Shown here: positions 2,052-14,616 of the stretch, one piece after another
Layout: each line of letters opens with the position of its first letter
Numbering within the stretch: the stretch's first letter is position 1
Virus record (IMG/VR): IMGVR_UViG_3300017770_000020
Coordinates: 1-50,801 of that record
DNA length: 50,801 nucleotides
Reading direction: 5' to 3' (one strand)
Source: a virus
Translations under genes and position numbers: made by a program
The notes under the pieces: generated by a model
Database searches by the model: none
Seen by the model: the letters and a program-made list of their open reading frames with translations, nothing else
What the model was told of the DNA's origin: nothing

Positions 2052-2333
2052 ATGACTGAAGATGAATTAAACACGCTAGCCGATAAAGTATTAGACATAC
2101 TAATAGAAAAATCAGCAAGCCCTAAATGGCATCAATATAACTCACCTATGACAGTAGGCGAACTAATATCAGGACAGTTGCCCTTTAAAGAATCAGAAGA
2201 AGAGCACTTAGTCGGTGAAATGGCTAGGCTCACAACGTTACTGCATATGTACGAAACAGCTGAAGAGTATATGAAAGCAGCAATAATAAAAAGAAAATTA
2301 GATATAGTAAACAATAAATTAGATAACCTATGA
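2052..2333 (+). CDS. hypothetical protein with a UVR-motif-like C-terminal helix
   Basis: A 93-residue acidic protein. The last third, ETAEEYMKAAIIKRKLDIVN, resembles the UVR helical-hairpin motif (E-x-x-Y/F-E-x-A-A-x-x-R-x-x-I) used by UvrB and UvrC for protein contacts. That similarity is short, so a repair role is only a possibility. The gene ends in an ATGA overlap with the DNA ligase gene, so the two are probably cotranslated. Confidence 0.6.
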   Translation: MTEDELNTLADKVLDILIEKSASPKWHQYNSPMTVGELISGQLPFKESEEEHLVGEMARLTTLLHMYETAEEYMKAAIIKRKLDIVNNKLDNL

Positions 2334-3205
2334 CAAAACCAATGTTAGCACACAAGTTCGATGACAACAGAGTAGACTGGTCTCAACCTGTGTATATACA
2401 ACCTAAATTAGACGGCGTTCGCTGTGTAATAAAACGAGTGTCAGACTTTCCTGGCCAAGAATACTTAGCTTCGTTCAGCGTAAAAGCATACTCAAGAACA
2501 GGCAAAGAGTTTAAAAATATAAAACATATATTAGAAAGCTTAAAACCGTTTTTCTTCAAAAACCCTGATGTAATACTCGACGGCGAATTATATAATCATA
2601 AACTAAAACGCGACTTCGAAAAAATTATATCACTAGTAAGAAAACAAAAACCTACTAATGAAGACAGAATTAATGCTCAGCATCTTATACAGTTTCACTG
2701 CTACGATTATATATCAGCTCCAGTTTATGACAGCTATAAAACCCGTATGCAAAACTTAGTAACATCAAATATATATGATGCTCAAATAAAATATGTACCC
2801 GCAAAACTTGTAGATAGCTATAGTTACGCTAGAAAACTACACAAAGAATATCTTGATGCGGGTTACGAAGGCTCAATCATTAGACTAGACGGCTTATACA
2901 AGCACGGTAGATCTTATGACTTAATGAAATTCAAAGACTTCAGCGATACTGAAGCAACCATCATAGGTTATGAAACAGGTAAAGGCAAAAGGACAGGTAC
3001 GCTTGGCAAATTCATAATGCAAGATGACGAAGGTAACGAGTTCGGTTGTCCACCCGGTAAAGGCTATACCTACAAGGATCTTGCTAATATGCTTAACAAT
3101 GTAGGTGACTATATTGGCCAGCGTGCTACCTTTACCTATTTTCAACGAACACAAGCAGGTTCATATAGACACCCGCTATTTAAAACAATTAGAAATTATG
3201 AATAA
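2330..3205 (+). CDS. lig: ATP-dependent DNA ligase
   Basis: A 291-residue ligase that seals nicks in double-stranded DNA through an enzyme-AMP intermediate. Nucleotidyltransferase motifs are in order: motif I KLDGVR with the adenylated lysine at residue 26, motif III DGELY at 84-88, motif IV EGSIIR at 180-185 and motif V MKFKDF at 199-204. After this comes a C-terminal OB-fold-like stretch. The length suits a minimal viral ligase with only the catalytic and OB domains. The start overlaps the previous stop as ATGA. In this operon it would join Okazaki fragments and seal repair products during phage replication. Confidence 0.93.
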   Translation: MTKPMLAHKFDDNRVDWSQPVYIQPKLDGVRCVIKRVSDFPGQEYLASFSVKAYSRTGKEFKNIKHILESLKPFFFKNPDVILDGELYNHKLKRDFEKIISLVRKQKPTNEDRINAQHLIQFHCYDYISAPVYDSYKTRMQNLVTSNIYDAQIKYVPAKLVDSYSYARKLHKEYLDAGYEGSIIRLDGLYKHGRSYDLMKFKDFSDTEATIIGYETGKGKRTGTLGKFIMQDDEGNEFGCPPGKGYTYKDLANMLNNVGDYIGQRATFTYFQRTQAGSYRHPLFKTIRNYE

Positions 3206-3389: not shown

Positions 3390-3496
3390 GTAAATTAATA
3401 TGGCAATTATATAATGAAAACCTAATATCTATGGACGTAGCAACTATATTATTAGATAAACATTATAATAGACTAGAAAACAAAAGATATAAATGA
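3386..3496 (+). CDS. tiny hypothetical protein (36 aa)
   Basis: An ATG overlapping the upstream TGA (ATGA) opens a 36-codon frame starting MSKLIWQLYNENLISMDVAT. It ends in another ATGA overlap with the next gene. Two couplings of this kind, one at each end, argue that it is translated. The peptide is predicted helical, with hydrophobic and charged faces. No family recognised. Confidence 0.5.
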   Translation: MSKLIWQLYNENLISMDVATILLDKHYNRLENKRYK

Positions 3497-3972
3497 ATAT
3501 ATTTTATTTAGATAAAGATCCTTACAAAGCTGCAGAGTTACAATATAATAAACATGTTGTTAAGATGATATTAGAGTCAGCTCAAATGCTTTGTACTGCT
3601 CATCATTGTTATGGTGATAAAGATCAAGTAGAAAATGTACCATATAAACAGGCTCATTTAAATCACCCATCAACAGTATGGACTAGACGTTCAAGATCTA
3701 CATACATGTGGTTATATAATCACATGATAGCTCTAGGTGATGAATATACAAAGAGATATGGTAAGACACATTTAAGTATAATTAAATGTAAAGACTTTTT
3801 AGCTAAACCTCCTGTGCATATACAAGGTGATGATTTTATACAACCTCCACAAGCTATGCCAGATGAATATAAAGATGAATGTAGTGTAAAAGCATATTGG
3901 AAATATTACATAGGCGAAAAAGGAAACATTGCAAACCCTAAAACAGAAAAATTATATGAGCAACAACCTTAA
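3493..3972 (+). CDS. conserved phage protein, possibly pyrimidine-dimer-glycosylase-like
   Basis: A 159-residue protein beginning MNIFYLDKDPYKAAELQ. Conserved-looking blocks are NKHVVKMILESAQMLCTAHH, LNHPSTVWTRRSRSTYMWLY, GKTHLS and PPQAMPDEYK. This pattern belongs to a common phage family that is usually annotated hypothetical. A helical region with KHVVKM and a C-terminal AYWKYYIGEK recalls the T4 endonuclease V (Pyr_excise) group, but the similarity is distant and the catalytic N-terminal threonine arrangement is absent. I therefore treat a repair role as a guess. It starts with an ATGA overlap. Confidence 0.65.
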   Translation: MNIFYLDKDPYKAAELQYNKHVVKMILESAQMLCTAHHCYGDKDQVENVPYKQAHLNHPSTVWTRRSRSTYMWLYNHMIALGDEYTKRYGKTHLSIIKCKDFLAKPPVHIQGDDFIQPPQAMPDEYKDECSVKAYWKYYIGEKGNIANPKTEKLYEQQP

Positions 3973-7287: not shown

Positions 7288-9003
7288 ATGCAAGTAGAAA
7301 ACAGAGAGATTAATGGATTTTTGATTGACGATTTCAATCAACATAAGCTTGACGTGGGTAAGACACAGGGGATATGTCCTCTGTGTTCTCACGACAGGAA
7401 ACCTAAGAATCAGAAGCTTAAATGTGCTTCTTATGACTGGGAACGTGGTCTCGGTACTTGCCACAACTGTAATTCAACTTTTCAACTACACACTTACGAA
7501 CGTAAGGGAGCTAGCGAGCGTGAATACGTTAGACCTGTAGCACAACAACAGGTTGCTCCTAGTAGTAAAGTTGTGGAATGGTTTAAGTCTAGAGGAATAT
7601 CTCAGAGTACTTTGGAAGCATTAAATGTTACCGAAGGCTCTGAGTATATGCCTCAAACTGGTAAAACTGAGAATACAATTAAGTTCAATTACTACATGGG
7701 TAATCAACTTATAAATATTAAATACCGTGATGGACGTAAAAACTTTAAACTATATAAAGGTGCTGAAAAAGTATTCTACAATATAAACAGCATTGTAGGA
7801 CATGACACATGCGTTATAGTTGAAGGTGAAATAGACGTGTTATCACTTCATGAGGCAAATGTGCCTAATGTAATATCCGTACCAAACGGAGCAACATTAA
7901 ATCATAACAACTTAGATTATCTAGATAATTGTATAGATTATTTTGAAGATAAAACTAAAATAATTCTAGCGGTAGATGCAGACGAACCTGGTAATATGCT
8001 TAAACACGAGTTTATACGTAGGCTTGGTGCAGAGAACTGTTATATAGTAGATTTTGCAGACTGTAAAGATGCTAATGAATACTTAATCAAGCATGGTAAA
8101 GAAGCTTTATCAAATGCTATACACAGCTCGCAGCAAGTACCACTAGAAAATGTATCAACTCTTAAAACTGTAGAAAATGAGCTTAAAGACTTTGTTAAAA
8201 ATGGTTTCAAACCAGGGTTTCAAGTCGGATTACAAAACTTCGACAAGATATTCAGTACCTACACTGGTCAGTTTATTACTGTTACTGGTATACCTAGTAG
8301 CGGTAAGTCTGACTTTGTTGATCAAATGGTCGTAGGTTATAACCAAAACTATGGTTGGAAAACTGCCTTTGCAAGTCCTGAAAATCAACCGATATATTTA
8401 CACGCACACAAGCTTATGCGTAAGACTTGGGGCGACATGCCTAGTCGTGGAGATATAGGTGGTGAAAAATGGAAAAAAGTTGCTGATCACGTAAATGATA
8501 ATTACTTTTTTATCGATATGGATAAATATAGTTTAGAATCAGTATTACGTAAAGGCGCTGAGCTTGTTAAACGCAAGGGTATTAAATGCTTGGTAATTGA
8601 TCCTTATAATAAGGTTAGAGATACAAATGCTGTATCAGATGATGTTAACAGATATACTATGGATTATCTATCAAAGATAGAATCGTTCTGTAAAAAGTAT
8701 GACGTTCTAACGTTTATTGTTGCGCATCCAACTAAGATGATGAGAGATCAAAATGGTAAAATTGCAGAACCTACAATGTATAACATTAAAGGTGGTGGTG
8801 AGTGGTACGATGCTAGTTATCACGGCTTATTAGTTCACAGAGATTATGAGGCTAAAAATACTAAAGTCAAAGTATTAAAAGTTAAGTTTCAAAACCTAGG
8901 TGAAAACGGCGGTGAATCATTTTTTACATGGGAACCAAAGTCTGGTTCTTTTATACCACAAATAACAGATACAGTCAAAGACGATGGCCTTCCGTGGGAG
9001 TAA
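7288..9003 (+). CDS. bifunctional DNA primase-helicase (T7 gp4-like)
   Basis: A 571-residue replication protein. An N-terminal zinc finger has CPLC at 30-33 and CHNC at 58-61. A Toprim primase domain follows, with VEGEID at 178-183 and the metal-binding DAD at 230-232. The C-terminal RecA-like helicase of the DnaB/gp4 family has Walker A GIPSSGKS at 334-341, Walker B LVIDP at 435-439 and the sensor-like histidine in VAHPTK at 480-483. It would unwind DNA and make primers. A single two-domain enzyme is usual in T7-like and many marine podoviruses. The matching DNA polymerase is not visible in this window. Confidence 0.93.
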   Translation: MQVENREINGFLIDDFNQHKLDVGKTQGICPLCSHDRKPKNQKLKCASYDWERGLGTCHNCNSTFQLHTYERKGASEREYVRPVAQQQVAPSSKVVEWFKSRGISQSTLEALNVTEGSEYMPQTGKTENTIKFNYYMGNQLINIKYRDGRKNFKLYKGAEKVFYNINSIVGHDTCVIVEGEIDVLSLHEANVPNVISVPNGATLNHNNLDYLDNCIDYFEDKTKIILAVDADEPGNMLKHEFIRRLGAENCYIVDFADCKDANEYLIKHGKEALSNAIHSSQQVPLENVSTLKTVENELKDFVKNGFKPGFQVGLQNFDKIFSTYTGQFITVTGIPSSGKSDFVDQMVVGYNQNYGWKTAFASPENQPIYLHAHKLMRKTWGDMPSRGDIGGEKWKKVADHVNDNYFFIDMDKYSLESVLRKGAELVKRKGIKCLVIDPYNKVRDTNAVSDDVNRYTMDYLSKIESFCKKYDVLTFIVAHPTKMMRDQNGKIAEPTMYNIKGGGEWYDASYHGLLVHRDYEAKNTKVKVLKVKFQNLGENGGESFFTWEPKSGSFIPQITDTVKDDGLPWE

Positions 9004-9250
9004 AAAGAAAGGAGCTGGTATGGGGCTTTATGTTCCAACAAAAGAAGAAGAAATAGCCTATAGATGGTGTGTAAGAAATAATATAAAAATATCACCGTGG
9101 GCAAGAGATCTTCAATCTTGGTACATAAGTGTTATTATCGGTAACGGTAAAAACAACGTAAGTCCTCAGTATTACGAAAGAGTAGAGATATGGGAGAAGA
9201 TGTATGAATTTTATAAATACTATTATAATAAATATGAGAAAAAGATTTAA
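8984..9250 (+). CDS. conserved hypothetical phage protein
   Basis: An 88-residue basic protein, MAFRGSKKKGAGMGLYVPT onward, ending in a tyrosine- and lysine-rich stretch (EFYKYYYNKYEKKI). The block YVPTKEEEIAYRWC is one I recall in uncharacterised phage proteins next to replication genes. The start overlaps the helicase gene by 20 nt. An alternative ATG at 9020 is preceded by AAAGGAG, a rare Shine-Dalgarno-like sequence in this genome. I keep the longer form because the GSKKKGAG lead-in seems part of the family. Function unknown. Confidence 0.6.
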   Translation: MAFRGSKKKGAGMGLYVPTKEEEIAYRWCVRNNIKISPWARDLQSWYISVIIGNGKNNVSPQYYERVEIWEKMYEFYKYYYNKYEKKI

Positions 9251-9875
9251 AAACGCTAATGAAGCTTATGAAGCTGTTCTTGATGAAATTATACAAAAGG
9301 GTATAGACTTTGACAATACAAAAGCTATATTTAATTGTGGGTTTTATATAGATAATCCTAGTCAAAAGCATATTACAAATGCTCAAAGAGACTGGAGTCA
9401 AAAATACGCAGCAGCAGAATGGGCTTGGTATTTGTTCGGTGATCCTAGTATAGACAAGCTAGGTGACTTGTACGGTAAAATACCTCCAATATGGGAAAAG
9501 ATGGCTGATAGCAAAAGAAATGTAAATAGTAATTATGGTTATCAATGGCAACGTAACAATCAAATAGATTATGTTGTTGCTAAGCTAAGAGATAACCCAA
9601 ACACTAGACATGCGGCAATAAGTATATATGACTGTAAAGAGCACGATAAATATCACAATGATACACCTTGTACTTATGCAGTTCAATTTACAATAATTAA
9701 TAATAAACTATGTATGTCAGTTTACATGCGTTCTAATGACATCTGGTACGGTTTCTGTAACGATCAATATCAATTTGCATCATTACAGGAAATGATTGCA
9801 GACAGACTGTCTATTGAGACCGGATGGTATTATCATCACGCGCACAACATGCATTTATACAATAATAAACTATGA
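9234..9875 (+). CDS. thymidylate-synthase-fold enzyme, predicted dCMP 5-hydroxymethylase
   Basis: A 213-residue protein of the thymidylate synthase fold, numbered from ATG 9234, which follows the leader TAATAAAT (an in-frame ATG at 9204 overlaps the upstream gene more). The catalytic cysteine is C146 in DTPCTYAVQF. The nucleotide-binding blocks are SNYGYQW (99-105), NPNTRHA (121-127) and MRSNDIWYGFCND (165-177). At the place where thymidylate synthases have the asparagine that reads uracil, this protein has Asp177. T4 gp42 makes the same change to bind cytosine, and T4 also has the MRSND...GF.ND pattern. I infer 5-hydroxymethyl-dCMP synthesis, and hence possible modified cytosine in phage DNA. 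A dUMP-type activity is the alternative. Confidence 0.75.
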   Translation: MRKRFKNANEAYEAVLDEIIQKGIDFDNTKAIFNCGFYIDNPSQKHITNAQRDWSQKYAAAEWAWYLFGDPSIDKLGDLYGKIPPIWEKMADSKRNVNSNYGYQWQRNNQIDYVVAKLRDNPNTRHAAISIYDCKEHDKYHNDTPCTYAVQFTIINNKLCMSVYMRSNDIWYGFCNDQYQFASLQEMIADRLSIETGWYYHHAHNMHLYNNKL

Positions 9876-10714
9876 CATATTATTTATATCATATTCCTGG
9901 TAAAAAAATAGGTGTTACCTGTGATCTTAATAACCGGGTCACAAAGCAACAAGGTTACGCCCCTGATGAATATGAAATATTAGAACACTCAGAAGATATA
10001 GATTTTATATCATCTTTAGAGCTTGAGTTGCAAAGAGAATATGGTTACCGTGTAGACATGGTACCTTATAAAAACCTTAAACCAAAAAATAAAATGAAAA
10101 TAAATATAACTGAACAAACCACAACGTTCCCAGTGCCCGTTAATAAACTAAAGGGTAGACTGATGGATAACATTGGTATGACTTGGGAAACCGAGCACGG
10201 TAGTTGTATAATAACTGCTAAGTCCATAAATTGGATTATGGAAAACGTTAAAACATCTATGTATAATAATGATAGATCATATGTATACAATAAAGCTTTT
10301 GCTAGATGGTTTGACAACAACAATGCTTACGAAACAAAAACAGGCGGTTTAGCACCTACAGGTCCAAGATCAATGGATGCTTATTCTCCTCAGAAAAAAT
10401 ACAGTCACCAACGAACATTAAAAATGTTTGATGATATAAGAGACTGGGCTAAAACTAGAGGATTATACGATAAAGGAAACTCACATACACAGTACGTTAA
10501 GCTACAAGAAGAGGCTGGAGAACTAGCTAAAGCATTACTAGATAACGATGGTATAGAAATCTTAGATGCTATTGGTGATATAGTTGTTGTATTAACAAAC
10601 CTAGCACATCTAGAAGGCTTTACAATCGAACAGTGTATTGAATCAGCTTATGACGAGATAAGTGATCGTACAGGTAAAATGATTAACGGAACGTTTGTTA
10701 AAGATGCAAATTAA
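9872..10714 (+). CDS. fusion: GIY-YIG-like N-terminal domain plus MazG-type pyrophosphohydrolase
   Basis: A 280-residue protein of at least two parts. Residues 1-70 (YYLYHIPGKKIGVTCDLNNR, then ELELQREYGYRVD) resemble a small GIY-YIG-like domain, though clear catalytic residues are not all present. The middle is of unknown fold, with a GGLAPTGPRS loop. Residues from about 205 form a MazG-type all-alpha NTP pyrophosphohydrolase, with EEAGE at 213-217 and EILDAIGD at 229-236, the E-E-x-x-E and E-x-x-D metal-binding pattern. MazG enzymes hydrolyse nucleoside triphosphates. Next to the predicted dCMP hydroxymethylase it could remove dCTP or dUTP. The gene starts in an ATGA overlap with it. Confidence 0.7.
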   Translation: MTYYLYHIPGKKIGVTCDLNNRVTKQQGYAPDEYEILEHSEDIDFISSLELELQREYGYRVDMVPYKNLKPKNKMKINITEQTTTFPVPVNKLKGRLMDNIGMTWETEHGSCIITAKSINWIMENVKTSMYNNDRSYVYNKAFARWFDNNNAYETKTGGLAPTGPRSMDAYSPQKKYSHQRTLKMFDDIRDWAKTRGLYDKGNSHTQYVKLQEEAGELAKALLDNDGIEILDAIGDIVVVLTNLAHLEGFTIEQCIESAYDEISDRTGKMINGTFVKDAN

Positions 10715-10970
10715 AACTACCGATAAGATAGTACAACAAGTACTAAGGAAGATGGACGAACGTAGTCTTGTGGGTCAAAAGAAATACGGCTCAACAATGC
10801 AAGATGAAATAGATACAGGTAAAAAAGACTTACACGCTTTTTTAACTGATGTTCAAGAAGAGATCATGGATGCTTTGCTATACATACAAGCAGCTAAACA
10901 CTGCTTACAACAAGAAGTAGAAGAGTCTATGCTCAAACAAATCAATGTTGATGATGAGGAAGAACTATAA
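10704..10970 (+). CDS. small MazG-superfamily-like phage protein
   Basis: An 88-residue protein; I use ATG 10704 (MQIKTTDKIVQQVLR), 11 nt inside the previous gene. The blocks RSLVGQKKYGSTM and LTDVQEEIMDALLYIQAAKH fit a widespread family of phage helical proteins in which EExxDALLY resembles one half of the MazG metal site. Dimeric or tetrameric assembly would be needed to complete an active site. It directly follows the MazG fusion, so the two may act together on nucleotides. Substrate unknown. Confidence 0.55.
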   Translation: MQIKTTDKIVQQVLRKMDERSLVGQKKYGSTMQDEIDTGKKDLHAFLTDVQEEIMDALLYIQAAKHCLQQEVEESMLKQINVDDEEEL

Positions 10971-11409
10971 AAGAAAAAAAGGGAAAGGTCCTGTCAGGAG
11001 TAAAAAAACTACTCTTGACGGGATAACCTTTGCTTCTGGTTTAGAAAAATATATGTATCAAGCTCTTAAAAAAGCTAAGATACACGCGTTATACGAAGGT
11101 CAAACCTTTGAGCTTGTAGAATCATTTGACTTTCCGTTTGAATCATACGAAAGATGTGGTAATGGAAAAGGAGAATATAAGAACAGAGGTAATAAGAAGA
11201 TATTAAACATGAAATACACGCCGGATTTTGTGGGTAAGGGTTGGATTATAGAGTGTAAAGGTAGAGCTAACGAATCATTTCCATTACGTTGGAAAATATT
11301 TAAAAAGCTTATCGCCGAAAGAAGATTAGGCCCCTTTACATTATACAAACCACAAAACCACAAAGAGTGTGACAAAACTGTAGAATTAATATTAAAACAA
11401 AATGGCTAA
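10945..11409 (+). CDS. PD-(D/E)XK endonuclease (DUF1064/Holliday-junction nuclease-like)
   Basis: A 154-residue basic protein. Candidate ATGs at 10945, 10951 and 10954 differ by three residues at most. The N-terminus is lysine-rich (RKNYKRKKGKGP), followed by SGLEKYMYQALKKA. The nuclease core is KYTPDFVGKGWIIECKGRAN, with PD, then E-x-K, the PD-(D/E)XK signature. Similar small phage nucleases include T7 endonuclease I-like and DUF1064 proteins that cut branched or recombining DNA. It overlaps both neighbours. I infer a role in debranching replicated DNA or degrading host DNA. Confidence 0.68.
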   Translation: MLMMRKNYKRKKGKGPVRSKKTTLDGITFASGLEKYMYQALKKAKIHALYEGQTFELVESFDFPFESYERCGNGKGEYKNRGNKKILNMKYTPDFVGKGWIIECKGRANESFPLRWKIFKKLIAERRLGPFTLYKPQNHKECDKTVELILKQNG

Positions 11410-11673: not shown

Positions 11674-12633
11674 ATGGGACTATTTGATGAAAGAATACCG
11701 TACAAACCTTTTGAGTACCCTGAGTATTATACTGAGGGTTGGTTAAAACAAGCTCAAGCATTTTGGTTACACACTGAAATACCTATGTCAGGTGACGTGA
11801 AAGACTGGAATGAACAATTAACAAAGTCTGAAAAAAACCTAGTGGGTAATATACTGCTGGGTTTTGCTCAGACTGAATGTGCAGTAAGTGATTATTGGAC
11901 ACAAAAAGTTGTAGCGTGGTTTCCAAAACACGAGATACAACAAATGGCTATGATGTTTGGTTCGCAAGAAACAATACATGCTGTAGCTTATAGTTATTTA
12001 AATGAAACTTTAGGTTTAGAAAACTTTGAGGCTTTTTTACAAGATGAAGCAACTATGGAACGCTTTGACAACCTTGTAGGTTACGAAGGAAATGATAAAA
12101 AAGAAATAGCTAAAAGTTTAGCTGTGTTTTCTGCGTTTGCAGAAGGTGTTTCTTTGTATTCTGCTTTTGCAGTATTGTACTCGTTTCAATTACGTAACTT
12201 ACTCAAAGGTATTGGACAACAAATGAAATGGTCTGTAAGAGATGAATCTTTACACAGTAAAATGGGTTGTCAGTTATTTAGACATATGTGTGAAGAGGAT
12301 AAAGACCTTTTGTCAGAGTGTGAAGACTCAATAAAAGATGCTGCTAAAGCTATGCATGATGCTGAAATGAAATATATAGATAAGATGTTTGAAATGGGTG
12401 ATATAGAAAACCTAAAAGCAGAAGATCTTAAAAACTTTATAAAGAAAAGACTTAACGAAAAGTTAGTTGAATTAGGTTATAAAGGTATATTTAAATATGA
12501 TGAAGCATCATCTGAAAATCTAGACTGGTTCTATCATTTAACTGGAGGACATACTCATACAGATTTCTTTGCAATAAGATCTACTGATTACAGTAAGGCA
12601 AATGAAGGTGAAGATTTTGAAGACGTTTGGTAA
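11674..12633 (+). CDS. nrdB: class I ribonucleotide reductase small (radical) subunit
   Basis: A 319-residue ferritin-fold protein that holds the diiron-tyrosyl radical cofactor used to make deoxyribonucleotides. Predicted metal ligands are E68 (TEC), E99 and H102 (QETIH), E157 (AEGVSL), and E191 and H194 (RDESLH). The radical tyrosine is Y106, four residues after H102, in the position of Y122 of E. coli NrdB. The C-terminus (GEDFEDVW) looks like the flexible tail that docks into the large subunit. It would work with NrdA encoded just downstream to supply dNTPs for phage DNA. The first ligand is Glu rather than the Asp of E. coli. Confidence 0.95.
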   Translation: MGLFDERIPYKPFEYPEYYTEGWLKQAQAFWLHTEIPMSGDVKDWNEQLTKSEKNLVGNILLGFAQTECAVSDYWTQKVVAWFPKHEIQQMAMMFGSQETIHAVAYSYLNETLGLENFEAFLQDEATMERFDNLVGYEGNDKKEIAKSLAVFSAFAEGVSLYSAFAVLYSFQLRNLLKGIGQQMKWSVRDESLHSKMGCQLFRHMCEEDKDLLSECEDSIKDAAKAMHDAEMKYIDKMFEMGDIENLKAEDLKNFIKKRLNEKLVELGYKGIFKYDEASSENLDWFYHLTGGHTHTDFFAIRSTDYSKANEGEDFEDVW

Positions 12634-12894: not shown

Positions 12895-14616
12895 ATGTGG
12901 AGTAACAGATGGAAGAAAGGCATAGACTATCCTGACTGGGCTGAGTCTGATGTTTATAAAAAAACAATACAAGGTGGTTATTTACTATATGATGAAACAC
13001 CTAAAGAAGCTTATCAACGTGTAGCTAAAACAGTTGCAATGAGATTAGAACGTCCAGAGATGGCTGAAACATTTTTTGATTACATTTGGAAAGGCTGGTT
13101 GTGTCTAGCGTCTCCTGTGTTGTCTAATACTGGTACTGATCGAGGTTTACCGATTAGTTGCTTTGGTATCGATGTTGCAGATAGTATAATTGATATAGGA
13201 CAGAAAAATTTAGAGATGATGCTACTCGCTAAACACGGCGGTGGAGTTGGTATCGGTGTAAATCAAATTAGACCCGCCGGAGCTAAAATAACAGGTAATG
13301 GAACAAGTGATGGCGTTGTGCCTTTTTGTAAAATATACGACTCAACTATACTTGCCACTAATCAAGGATCTGTCAGACGAGGAGCTGCATCGGTTAATAT
13401 TAACATTGAACACTCCGATTTTGAAGAGTGGCTCGAAATACGTGAACCCAAAGGAGACATCAACCGTCAATCGCTCAACCTGCATCAATGTGCTGTTGTC
13501 GGCGATAAGTTCATGCGAAAGCTTAGAGACGGAGATAAAGTTGCTAGAAGACGTTGGGGAAAACTACTTCAAAAGCGTAAAGCTACTGGAGAACCATATA
13601 TCCTTTTTAAGGGAAATACAAATAAGAATAACCCCGCTGCATACAAAGATAACGCGTTAAAAGTTCACATGACAAACATCTGTAGTGAAATAACACTACA
13701 CACAGATGAGAACCATAGCTTTGTATGTTGTTTATCTAGTTTAAATTTATCTAAATATAAAGAGTGGAAAAACAGTAATCTTATATATGATAGTATATGG
13801 TTTTTGGATGGGGTTTTAGAAGAGTTTATACAGAAAGCTAAAAATAGAAGAGGATTTGAAAACGCTATTCGATCTGCTGAAAAGGGTAGAGCGTTAGGAC
13901 TAGGTGTAGTCGGATGGCATACTTATTTACAACAAAAGGGTTTACCTTTTGAAGGATTATTATCACAATATGAAACAAGAAGAATATTTTCACAAATCAA
14001 AATTGAATCAGAAAGAGCGTCTATGGCTTTGGCTGAAACGTTCGGTGAACCACTTTGGTGCGTTGGCACGGGATTTAGGAACACACATCTCAGAGCTATT
14101 GCTCCTACTGTTAGTAATAGTAAGTTATCTGGGAATATTAGTCCTGGAATCGAGCCTTGGGCTGCTAATGTTTTTACAGACCAGTCTGCTAAAGGTACGT
14201 TCATACGTAAGAACCCTACGTTAGAAAAAGTATTAAACGATAACAACTTAAACAACAAAAAAATATGGGATCAAATATTGAAAGACGGAGGATCAATACA
14301 AGGCGTCAAAGCATTAGAGAAAATTACATTGGGAGATCACGACATACCAATCAAAGAGGTTTTCAAAACCTTCAAGGAAATAAATCAACTAGATTTAATT
14401 AATCAAGCTGGTATACGACAACAGTATATAGATCAGAGTGTTAGTTTGAATTTAGCATTTCCATCTGAGGCAGAACCTAAGTTTATAAACAAGGTTCATT
14501 TAGATGCTTGGAAGAAAGGTATAAAAACCTTATATTACATGAGGACAGAATCAGTCCTTCGTGGAGACATCGCGGCTAATGCAACCGATGAAGGCTGCAT
14601 GAGCTGTGATGGATAA
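12895..14616 (+). CDS. nrdA: class I ribonucleotide reductase large (catalytic) subunit, short form
   Basis: A 573-residue catalytic subunit that reduces ribonucleoside diphosphates. Active-site residues are C89 (ISCFG), the N261-C263-E265 set in NICSE, and C278/C279 in FVCCLSSLNL. The C-terminal CMSC (568-571) is the shuttle pair that passes electrons from thioredoxin or glutaredoxin. The protein is much shorter than the roughly 760 residues of E. coli NrdA and starts directly at WSNRWKKGIDYPDW, so the N-terminal ATP-cone that mediates dATP inhibition is absent. A reductase lacking this control suits a phage that needs continuous dNTP supply. It is the last gene of the + strand arm. Confidence 0.95.
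   Translation: MWSNRWKKGIDYPDWAESDVYKKTIQGGYLLYDETPKEAYQRVAKTVAMRLERPEMAETFFDYIWKGWLCLASPVLSNTGTDRGLPISCFGIDVADSIIDIGQKNLEMMLLAKHGGGVGIGVNQIRPAGAKITGNGTSDGVVPFCKIYDSTILATNQGSVRRGAASVNINIEHSDFEEWLEIREPKGDINRQSLNLHQCAVVGDKFMRKLRDGDKVARRRWGKLLQKRKATGEPYILFKGNTNKNNPAAYKDNALKVHMTNICSEITLHTDENHSFVCCLSSLNLSKYKEWKNSNLIYDSIWFLDGVLEEFIQKAKNRRGFENAIRSAEKGRALGLGVVGWHTYLQQKGLPFEGLLSQYETRRIFSQIKIESERASMALAETFGEPLWCVGTGFRNTHLRAIAPTVSNSKLSGNISPGIEPWAANVFTDQSAKGTFIRKNPTLEKVLNDNNLNNKKIWDQILKDGGSIQGVKALEKITLGDHDIPIKEVFKTFKEINQLDLINQAGIRQQYIDQSVSLNLAFPSEAEPKFINKVHLDAWKKGIKTLYYMRTESVLRGDIAANATDEGCMSCDG

Follow-up and report, generated by a model that had tools for sequence, protein, structure and literature searches.

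A predicted T4-type dCMP 5-hydroxymethylase in a Flavobacteriia-type podovirus and the exchange of enzymes in its gene slot

This analysis indicates that the open reading frame at positions 9234-9875 very likely codes for an enzyme like T4 gp42, a folate-dependent dCMP 5-hydroxymethylase, which would produce 5-hydroxymethyl-dCMP; we infer this chemistry from mutants of the T4 and MilA enzymes. The gene lies in a slot between primase-helicase and MazG genes that holds one of three enzymes in related podoviruses, and these enzymes have clearly been exchanged relative to their surroundings.

The window, that is, the whole stretch of DNA analysed here, covers the full length of a virus record of 50,801 bases, which is linear and has no terminal repeats. 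About 17 kb are very probably missing from the window, because in the close relative G011 the sequence repeats after about 67.5 kb, with the slot gene at position 1336 and again at 68881. The terminase and coat proteins have their relatives in phages of Flavobacterium, Cellulophaga, Maribacter, and Tenacibaculum, and one relative of the phage sits inside a Flavobacteriaceae MAG. Both observations support a predicted host in the class Flavobacteriia, in line with a preliminary description of the window as a flavobacterial podovirus. Two other relatives from bins labelled Aliivibrio and one from a Verrucomicrobiales bin are probably misbinned viral contigs.

Sequence, fold and active site of the slot enzyme

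The gene and the codons of its three most informative residues are as follows.

9234-9875, + strand: predicted dCMP 5-hydroxymethylase of 213 amino acids, thymidylate synthase superfamily (translation, Pfam, alignment, tree, and fold)
9660-9662, + strand: codon of Asp143, equivalent to T4 Asp145, three residues before the catalytic cysteine (Cys-3); hydroxymethylation signature, Leu in ThyA (alignment; PMC6400193)
9669-9671, + strand: codon of the catalytic Cys146 (alignment)
9762-9764, + strand: codon of Asp177, the base-reading residue, Asn in ThyA and Asp179 in T4 gp42 (MAFFT alignment)

The reading frame is free of stops over 213 residues; an in-frame ATG is also present at 9204, yet the alignment of relatives begins at 9234. 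The protein matches the Pfam family Thymidylat_synt with 96.6 bits (E 1.8e-27). Its best sequence matches among solved structures are the MilA CMP hydroxymethylase (1.4e-20) and the T4 dCMP hydroxymethylase (2.9e-16), with a thymidylate synthase (5.5e-15) and E. coli ThyA (about 1e-13) as further matches. An AlphaFold2 model (pLDDT 87) compared with the PDB by Foldseek retrieved MilA as the top match, followed by thymidylate synthases and the T4 dCMP hydroxymethylase.

The protein, which contains the motif MRSNDIWYGFCND, was aligned using MAFFT with a panel of E. coli ThyA, T4 gp42, the SPO1 dUMP hydroxymethylase, MilA, Pamexvirus enzymes, and RB69 ORF048, in which the Xp12 type was represented by the relatives AXL1 and PaMx74 in place of Xp12 itself (MT664984). 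Asp177 aligns with Asn177 of ThyA and Asp179 of T4 gp42, so that the preliminary description was right to place it at the base-reading position of a thymidylate-synthase-fold enzyme, and also in calling Cys146 intact. Among IMG/VR relatives, Asp177 is kept in all 111 that cover the site and Cys146 in 112 of 112. Two positions split the panel cleanly. At 177, the cytosine enzymes carry Asp, whereas ThyA and the dUMP hydroxymethylases carry Asn. At Cys-3, ThyA has Leu, the Pamexvirus enzymes have Asn, RB69 ORF048 has Glu, and the hydroxymethylases have Asp. The window protein has Asp at both, as does T4 gp42.

The agreement with T4 gp42 extends over the remainder of the active site. The folate residues Glu62 (ThyA 58), Trp87 (ThyA 80), and Asp169 correspond to T4 Glu60, Trp82, and Asp171, Ser99 and Tyr101 to T4 Ser94 and Tyr96, and the deoxyribose residues Ser167 and Arg125 (126) are present, as are Thr147, His207, and Tyr209; at Met90 (ThyA 83), T4 has Val. 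Asp177, Asp143, Ser99, Tyr101, Thr147, Glu62, Trp87, Asp169, Ser167, and Arg125 all match T4 gp42 and are invariant where covered in the 112 IMG/VR relatives. Only the residue after Arg125 varies (His, Gln, or Lys), and the phosphate-binding Arg124 of T4 is replaced by His or Gln in the podovirus enzyme family. In T4 gp42, the exchanges D145N and D179N abolished product formation, and hydroxymethylation was proposed to be marked by Asp at Cys-3 together with the Ser/Tyr pair (PMC6400193). Positions 177 and 147 were the top residues linked to cytosine-modified metagenomic DNA (PMC8670742), and the pair of Ser167 and Arg125 reflects a preference for deoxyribose over ribose (PMC5175136).

The C-terminus of the window protein ends four residues past Tyr209 and, as in T4 gp42, has no long tail. 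In ThyA, this tail seals the active site for hydride transfer. Its absence bears on the reading that the enzyme is an ordinary thymidylate synthase supplying dTMP, which the names of the Pfam, PHROG, and NCBIfam matches would suggest, although every NCBIfam match is far below its curated cut-off. With Asp rather than Asn at 177, Asp143 in place of the hydrophobic Leu, and Thr147 rather than His, with the tail absent and with a placement in the tree distant from ThyA, a thymidylate synthase is extremely unlikely.

The same features weigh on a dCMP methylase like that of phage Xp12, with 5-methyl-dCMP as its product. Asp177 turns ThyA into a dCMP methylase in vitro (as cited in PMC8670742), and ThyA-like enzymes with Asp177 fill the same slot in relatives of the phage. 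Cys-3, however, is Asp in the window protein and neither Leu as in ThyA-like enzymes nor Asn as in the Pamexvirus enzymes of the Xp12 relatives AXL1 and PaMx74, which have about 61 tail residues, and the tail required for hydride transfer is missing, which makes a methylase very unlikely.

A third reading is an FAD-dependent 5-hydroxy-dCMP synthase like RB69 ORF048, which would lead to 5-hydroxycytosine DNA. RB69 ORF048 (237-238 aa) aligns along its whole length with PDB 9IQC (E 2e-161), whose description names a riboflavin-dependent monooxygenase together with dCMP and FAD, and Mosigvirus makes 5-hydroxy-dCMP by an enzyme of this kind (PMC13390438). The fold, Cys146, and Asp177 are shared with the window protein, but the RB69 protein has lost the folate machinery (E58F, W80V, D169N, G173V, Y209F) and carries Glu at Cys-3, whereas the window protein retains those residues and has Asp. 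Because the folate residues are kept, a folate-dependent hydroxymethylase is the better reading, and a synthase of the RB69 type is highly improbable.

Taken together, Asp177 is not diagnostic by itself, because the RB69 5-hydroxy-dCMP synthase, MilA, and likely dCMP methylases have it too. As a sole marker it was dropped, being common to RB69 ORF048, the Pamexvirus enzymes, and the ThyA-like slot enzymes. The preliminary description, which had taken this residue as the mark of a dCMP hydroxymethylase, thus named the enzyme type to which residues, tree, and fold also point, but on a marker that does not suffice. The argument is carried by the Asp at Cys-3, the folate residues, and the absent tail.

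A maximum-likelihood tree, the analysis that the preliminary description had proposed, groups the podovirus family with the T4-type dCMP hydroxymethylases and gene 32 of Bacteroides phage BF486P2 (support 97/96). Removal of three problem rows with long branches left the same grouping with weak support of 80/48; a T4-type ancestor is therefore likely, though not proved. In both trees, ThyA and the Xp12-type enzymes stand apart from the podovirus family.

Neighbouring genes and the predicted pathway

The surroundings of the gene are conserved. In the following list, counts refer to hydroxymethylase relatives with enough flanking DNA.

7288-9003, + strand: primase-helicase (Toprim and DnaB-like), left border of the slot (61/62 relatives)
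8984-9250, + strand: small open reading frame of 88 aa between the primase-helicase and the slot (64/66)
9872-10714, + strand: MazG/PRA-PH pyrophosphohydrolase domain, candidate for the step from dCTP to dCMP (71/71, directly downstream)
10716-10970, + strand: small conserved protein without a MazG match (73/74)
10945-11409, + strand: DUF1064 protein (74/75)
11674-12633, + strand: ribonucleotide reductase small chain NrdB (68/69)
12895-14616, + strand: ribonucleotide reductase large chain NrdA (64/64)

Two MazG-type proteins had been described at 9872-10970. The first of them stands: the C-terminal part of 9872-10714 is a MazG domain with an intact EExxE...ExxD motif, behind an N-terminus that is weakly GIY-YIG-like. 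The protein at 10716-10970 was rejected as a second MazG. PRA-PH and TS domains occur together on cytosine-modified contigs (PMC8670742); a MazG-like gene annotated as PRA-PH is also present in Elemovirus, which is without the hydroxymethylase. A further partner, a supposed Nmad1-like protein at 1230-1547, was discarded: it has no Pfam match, PF07659 (DUF1599), which we take to be the Nmad1 family, is silent on the whole record, and of 35 relatives with sufficient flanking sequence only 3 were found to have the gene. Elsewhere in the window, the gene at 3493-3972 is conserved (43/47 relatives) and combines a strong match to phrog_624 with a weak similarity to Pyr_excise (pyrimidine-dimer glycosylase) below the cut-off.

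In the proposed mechanism, Cys146 would attack C6 of dCMP, Asp177 would recognise the cytosine ring and protonate it, and the carbon would come from methylene-tetrahydrofolate. Asp143 would activate a water molecule that hydrates the exocyclic methylene, giving 5-hydroxymethyl-dCMP and tetrahydrofolate. The pyrophosphohydrolase of the next gene would probably supply dCMP from dCTP, host kinases would raise the product to the triphosphate, and a host polymerase would incorporate 5-hydroxymethyl-dCTP into phage DNA, which would thereby be protected from restriction. Host enzymes would have to accept the modified nucleotide, because no dNMP kinase able to take 5-hydroxymethyl-dCMP was recognised in the genomes tested and a family-A DNA polymerase was detected neither in 18 relatives nor in the window; replication may rely on a host polymerase.

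Further processing of the base was sought as well. The nearest matches of the enzyme outside Bacteroidetes phages, from Lactobacillus phage ATCCB and Enterococcus phage VPE25, adjoin beta-glucosyltransferase genes. The statement that no glycosyltransferase accompanies the window enzyme held for the families tested, with no GT2 glycosyltransferase in 18 relatives; no carbamoyltransferase was detected in 19 records, and a search with the T4 beta-glucosyltransferase, whose control also stayed silent, returned nothing and so carries little weight.

The lack of a recognised kinase, DNA polymerase, or downstream modifier in the genomes tested, together with the position of the gene within a ribonucleotide reductase operon, would fit an enzyme that acts on dCMP only to shift the nucleotide pool or to mark a few bases, so that virion DNA is mostly unmodified. 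That the slot has repeatedly passed between this and another Asp177 enzyme (see below) points instead to the modified base itself, and palindromes are not avoided here, in contrast to most relatives without an Asp177 enzyme. We consider mostly unmodified DNA unlikely. In the hydroxymethylase phages (74 loci), G/C-containing four-base palindromes have observed/expected ratios of about 0.85-1.07, with a GATC median of 1.16, and ratios of 0.80-1.01 in both ThyA-like classes likewise leave avoidance near nil. Relatives without an Asp177 enzyme mostly avoid such palindromes strongly, and elemo-like and MW202828-like phages often have zero GATC or CATG. This pattern fits restriction-resistant DNA but lends that reading weak support, because the contrast follows clade, one relative without an Asp177 enzyme (L275) shows no avoidance, and BF486P2 has a hydroxymethylase yet avoids GATC and CTAG. 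For the same reasons, palindrome avoidance was rejected as proof of modification.

Exchange of enzymes in the slot

The three slot types are the hydroxymethylase and two ThyA-like enzymes, M31 (G031 type) and M32 (G032 type). The latter occupy the hydroxymethylase position in the terminase relatives G031 and G032 and in the second phage unit of contig G004.

G031, L407:10317-11138: ThyA-like slot enzyme, natural N177D
G032, L410:5044-5814: ThyA-like slot enzyme, natural N177D
G004, about 87.7-88.5 kb: ThyA-like slot enzyme, natural N177D
Loci L422-L540: ThyA-like slot enzymes, natural N177D

These proteins combine Asp177 with Leu143, His or Tyr at 147, and a tail of 44-63 residues, and the G031 enzyme is 42% identical to E. 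coli ThyA. M31 members have Asp177 in 80 of 80 cases, MazG downstream in 76 of 76, and the primase-helicase upstream in 52 of 52. In M32, Asp177 is present in 39 of 40, and the one member with Asn177 is probably the distant outlier L541 (41% identical). None of the loci in the sampled set holds both a ThyA-like enzyme and the hydroxymethylase. Contig G004 (IMGVR_UViG_3300047157_000162, 129,537 bp) carries two related phage units, one with each enzyme, and is probably a chimeric assembly.

The slot types are intermixed in the NrdB tree, with 14 changes, of which well-supported branches force at least three for the hydroxymethylase label. Six changes, again at least three of them forced in this way, were found in the primase-helicase tree, four (at least two forced for the same label) in the terminase tree of 21 genomes, and six (at least three forced) in the portal tree of 20 genomes; recombination of the flanking genes could inflate all these counts.

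Thymidylate synthase was reportedly converted to a dCMP methylase by an Asn to Asp exchange in work of 1992 by Liu and Santi and by Hardy and Nalivaika. The same conversion at position 177, as cited in PMC8670742, leads us to predict that the ThyA-like slot enzymes are dCMP methylases that form 5-methyl-dCMP. Whichever type occupies the slot, Asp177 is present, and a dCMP-type enzyme would therefore always be encoded, with a predicted product alternating between 5-hydroxymethyl-dCMP and 5-methyl-dCMP. The different Asp177 enzymes of relatives suggest that these phages swap cytosine chemistries and that the locus is a putative cytosine-modification slot with interchangeable chemistry.

Two other genes of the window tend to co-occur with the hydroxymethylase.

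1537-2025, + strand: orphan protein of 162 residues from the MSTRN...HHDGYPE family, carried by 11/11 of the hydroxymethylase genomes examined and by 0/11 of the methylase type
2330-3205, + strand: ATP-dependent DNA ligase, in 13/14 hydroxymethylase genomes and 3/11 methylase-type genomes

The split of the orphan holds in a profile search (Fisher p 3e-6), and that of the ligase has p 0.002. Since there are only one to three independent phylogenetic pairs (all agree for the orphan and none disagrees for the ligase), these associations are not yet significant when relatedness is allowed for. Among the wider hydroxymethylase loci, the orphan is present in only 26, against 37 counted with enough flank. 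Its AlphaFold model is confident (pLDDT 85.5), and no match was found in the PDB (best E 0.41), Pfam, NCBIfam, or annotated phages. A Gene product 88 (PF17338) protein (L584:14485-15099 in G046) has the opposite distribution, in 8/11 methylase-type and 0/11 hydroxymethylase genomes.

In the broadest reading, widespread Flavobacteriia-type podoviruses would keep a dedicated slot in which the hydroxymethylase and a natural N177D ThyA replace each other, so that genomes with 5hmC and 5mC alternate and the orphan and the ligase follow the hydroxymethyl form. We regard this reading as evenly balanced between right and wrong, because it requires that the ThyA-like enzymes are true dCMP methylases and that the bases enter DNA. 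Full cytosine replacement via modified nucleotide synthesis is best known from T4; if the reading is true, it would be common in abundant environmental phages apparently infecting Flavobacteriia and would require no T4-like gene set. The exchange in one slot would be evolution's own version, many times over, of the classic mutagenesis experiment, and would suggest an arms race in which phages alter one base chemically and so evade restriction enzymes that depend on modification and are specific for either 5hmC or 5mC. Matched phage pairs are offered for testing the roles of the accompanying genes.

Comparison with known systems

T4 gp42 (PDB 1B5E, 6A9A) agrees with the window protein in all catalytic, cytosine-reading, water-activating, and folate residues checked, in the short C-terminus, and in its tree group. 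The window protein differs in being 33 residues shorter and in the replacement of Arg124, and its gene lies in the nrd/primase operon of a podovirus without a glucosyltransferase neighbour or a recognised DNA polymerase. The closest annotated phage protein is the deoxycytidylate 5-hydroxymethyltransferase of BF486P2 (gene 32), with 42% identity over the full length and the same signature residues, although from another phage type. BF486P2 also carries a second, very divergent Asp177 paralogue, gene 27 (L002:17168-17929), without Glu58, Trp80, and Gly173. The ATCCB and VPE25 enzymes share Asp143, Thr147, and Asp177 at 34-37% identity but have a longer C-terminus, and the beta-glucosyltransferase genes that follow them are, as far as tested, absent from the window lineage.

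MilA, the top PDB match by both sequence and fold, also has Asp at 177 and Cys-3, but its ribose pocket carries Ala and Lys in place of Ser167 and Arg125, the deoxyribose-preference pair of the window protein (PMC5175136). Engineered ThyA N177D and the Pamexvirus/Xp12 enzymes have Asp177 in common with the window protein, and ThyA-like forms are found in the slot of G031, G032, and G004; these enzymes differ in having a complete tail and, at Cys-3, Leu or Asn, and are predicted to methylate rather than hydroxymethylate. The thyA-annotated gene of the uncultured phage MedDCM-OCT-S28-C10 (Autographiviridae; L196:4974-5732), with Asp177 and Leu143, adjoins genes for a dCMP deaminase, a thymidylate kinase, and an NTP pyrophosphohydrolase and possibly encodes another dCMP methylase. 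Finally, RB69 ORF048 shares the fold, Cys146, and Asp177 but has Phe, Val, and Asn at positions 58, 80, and 169, where the window protein retains the folate residues.
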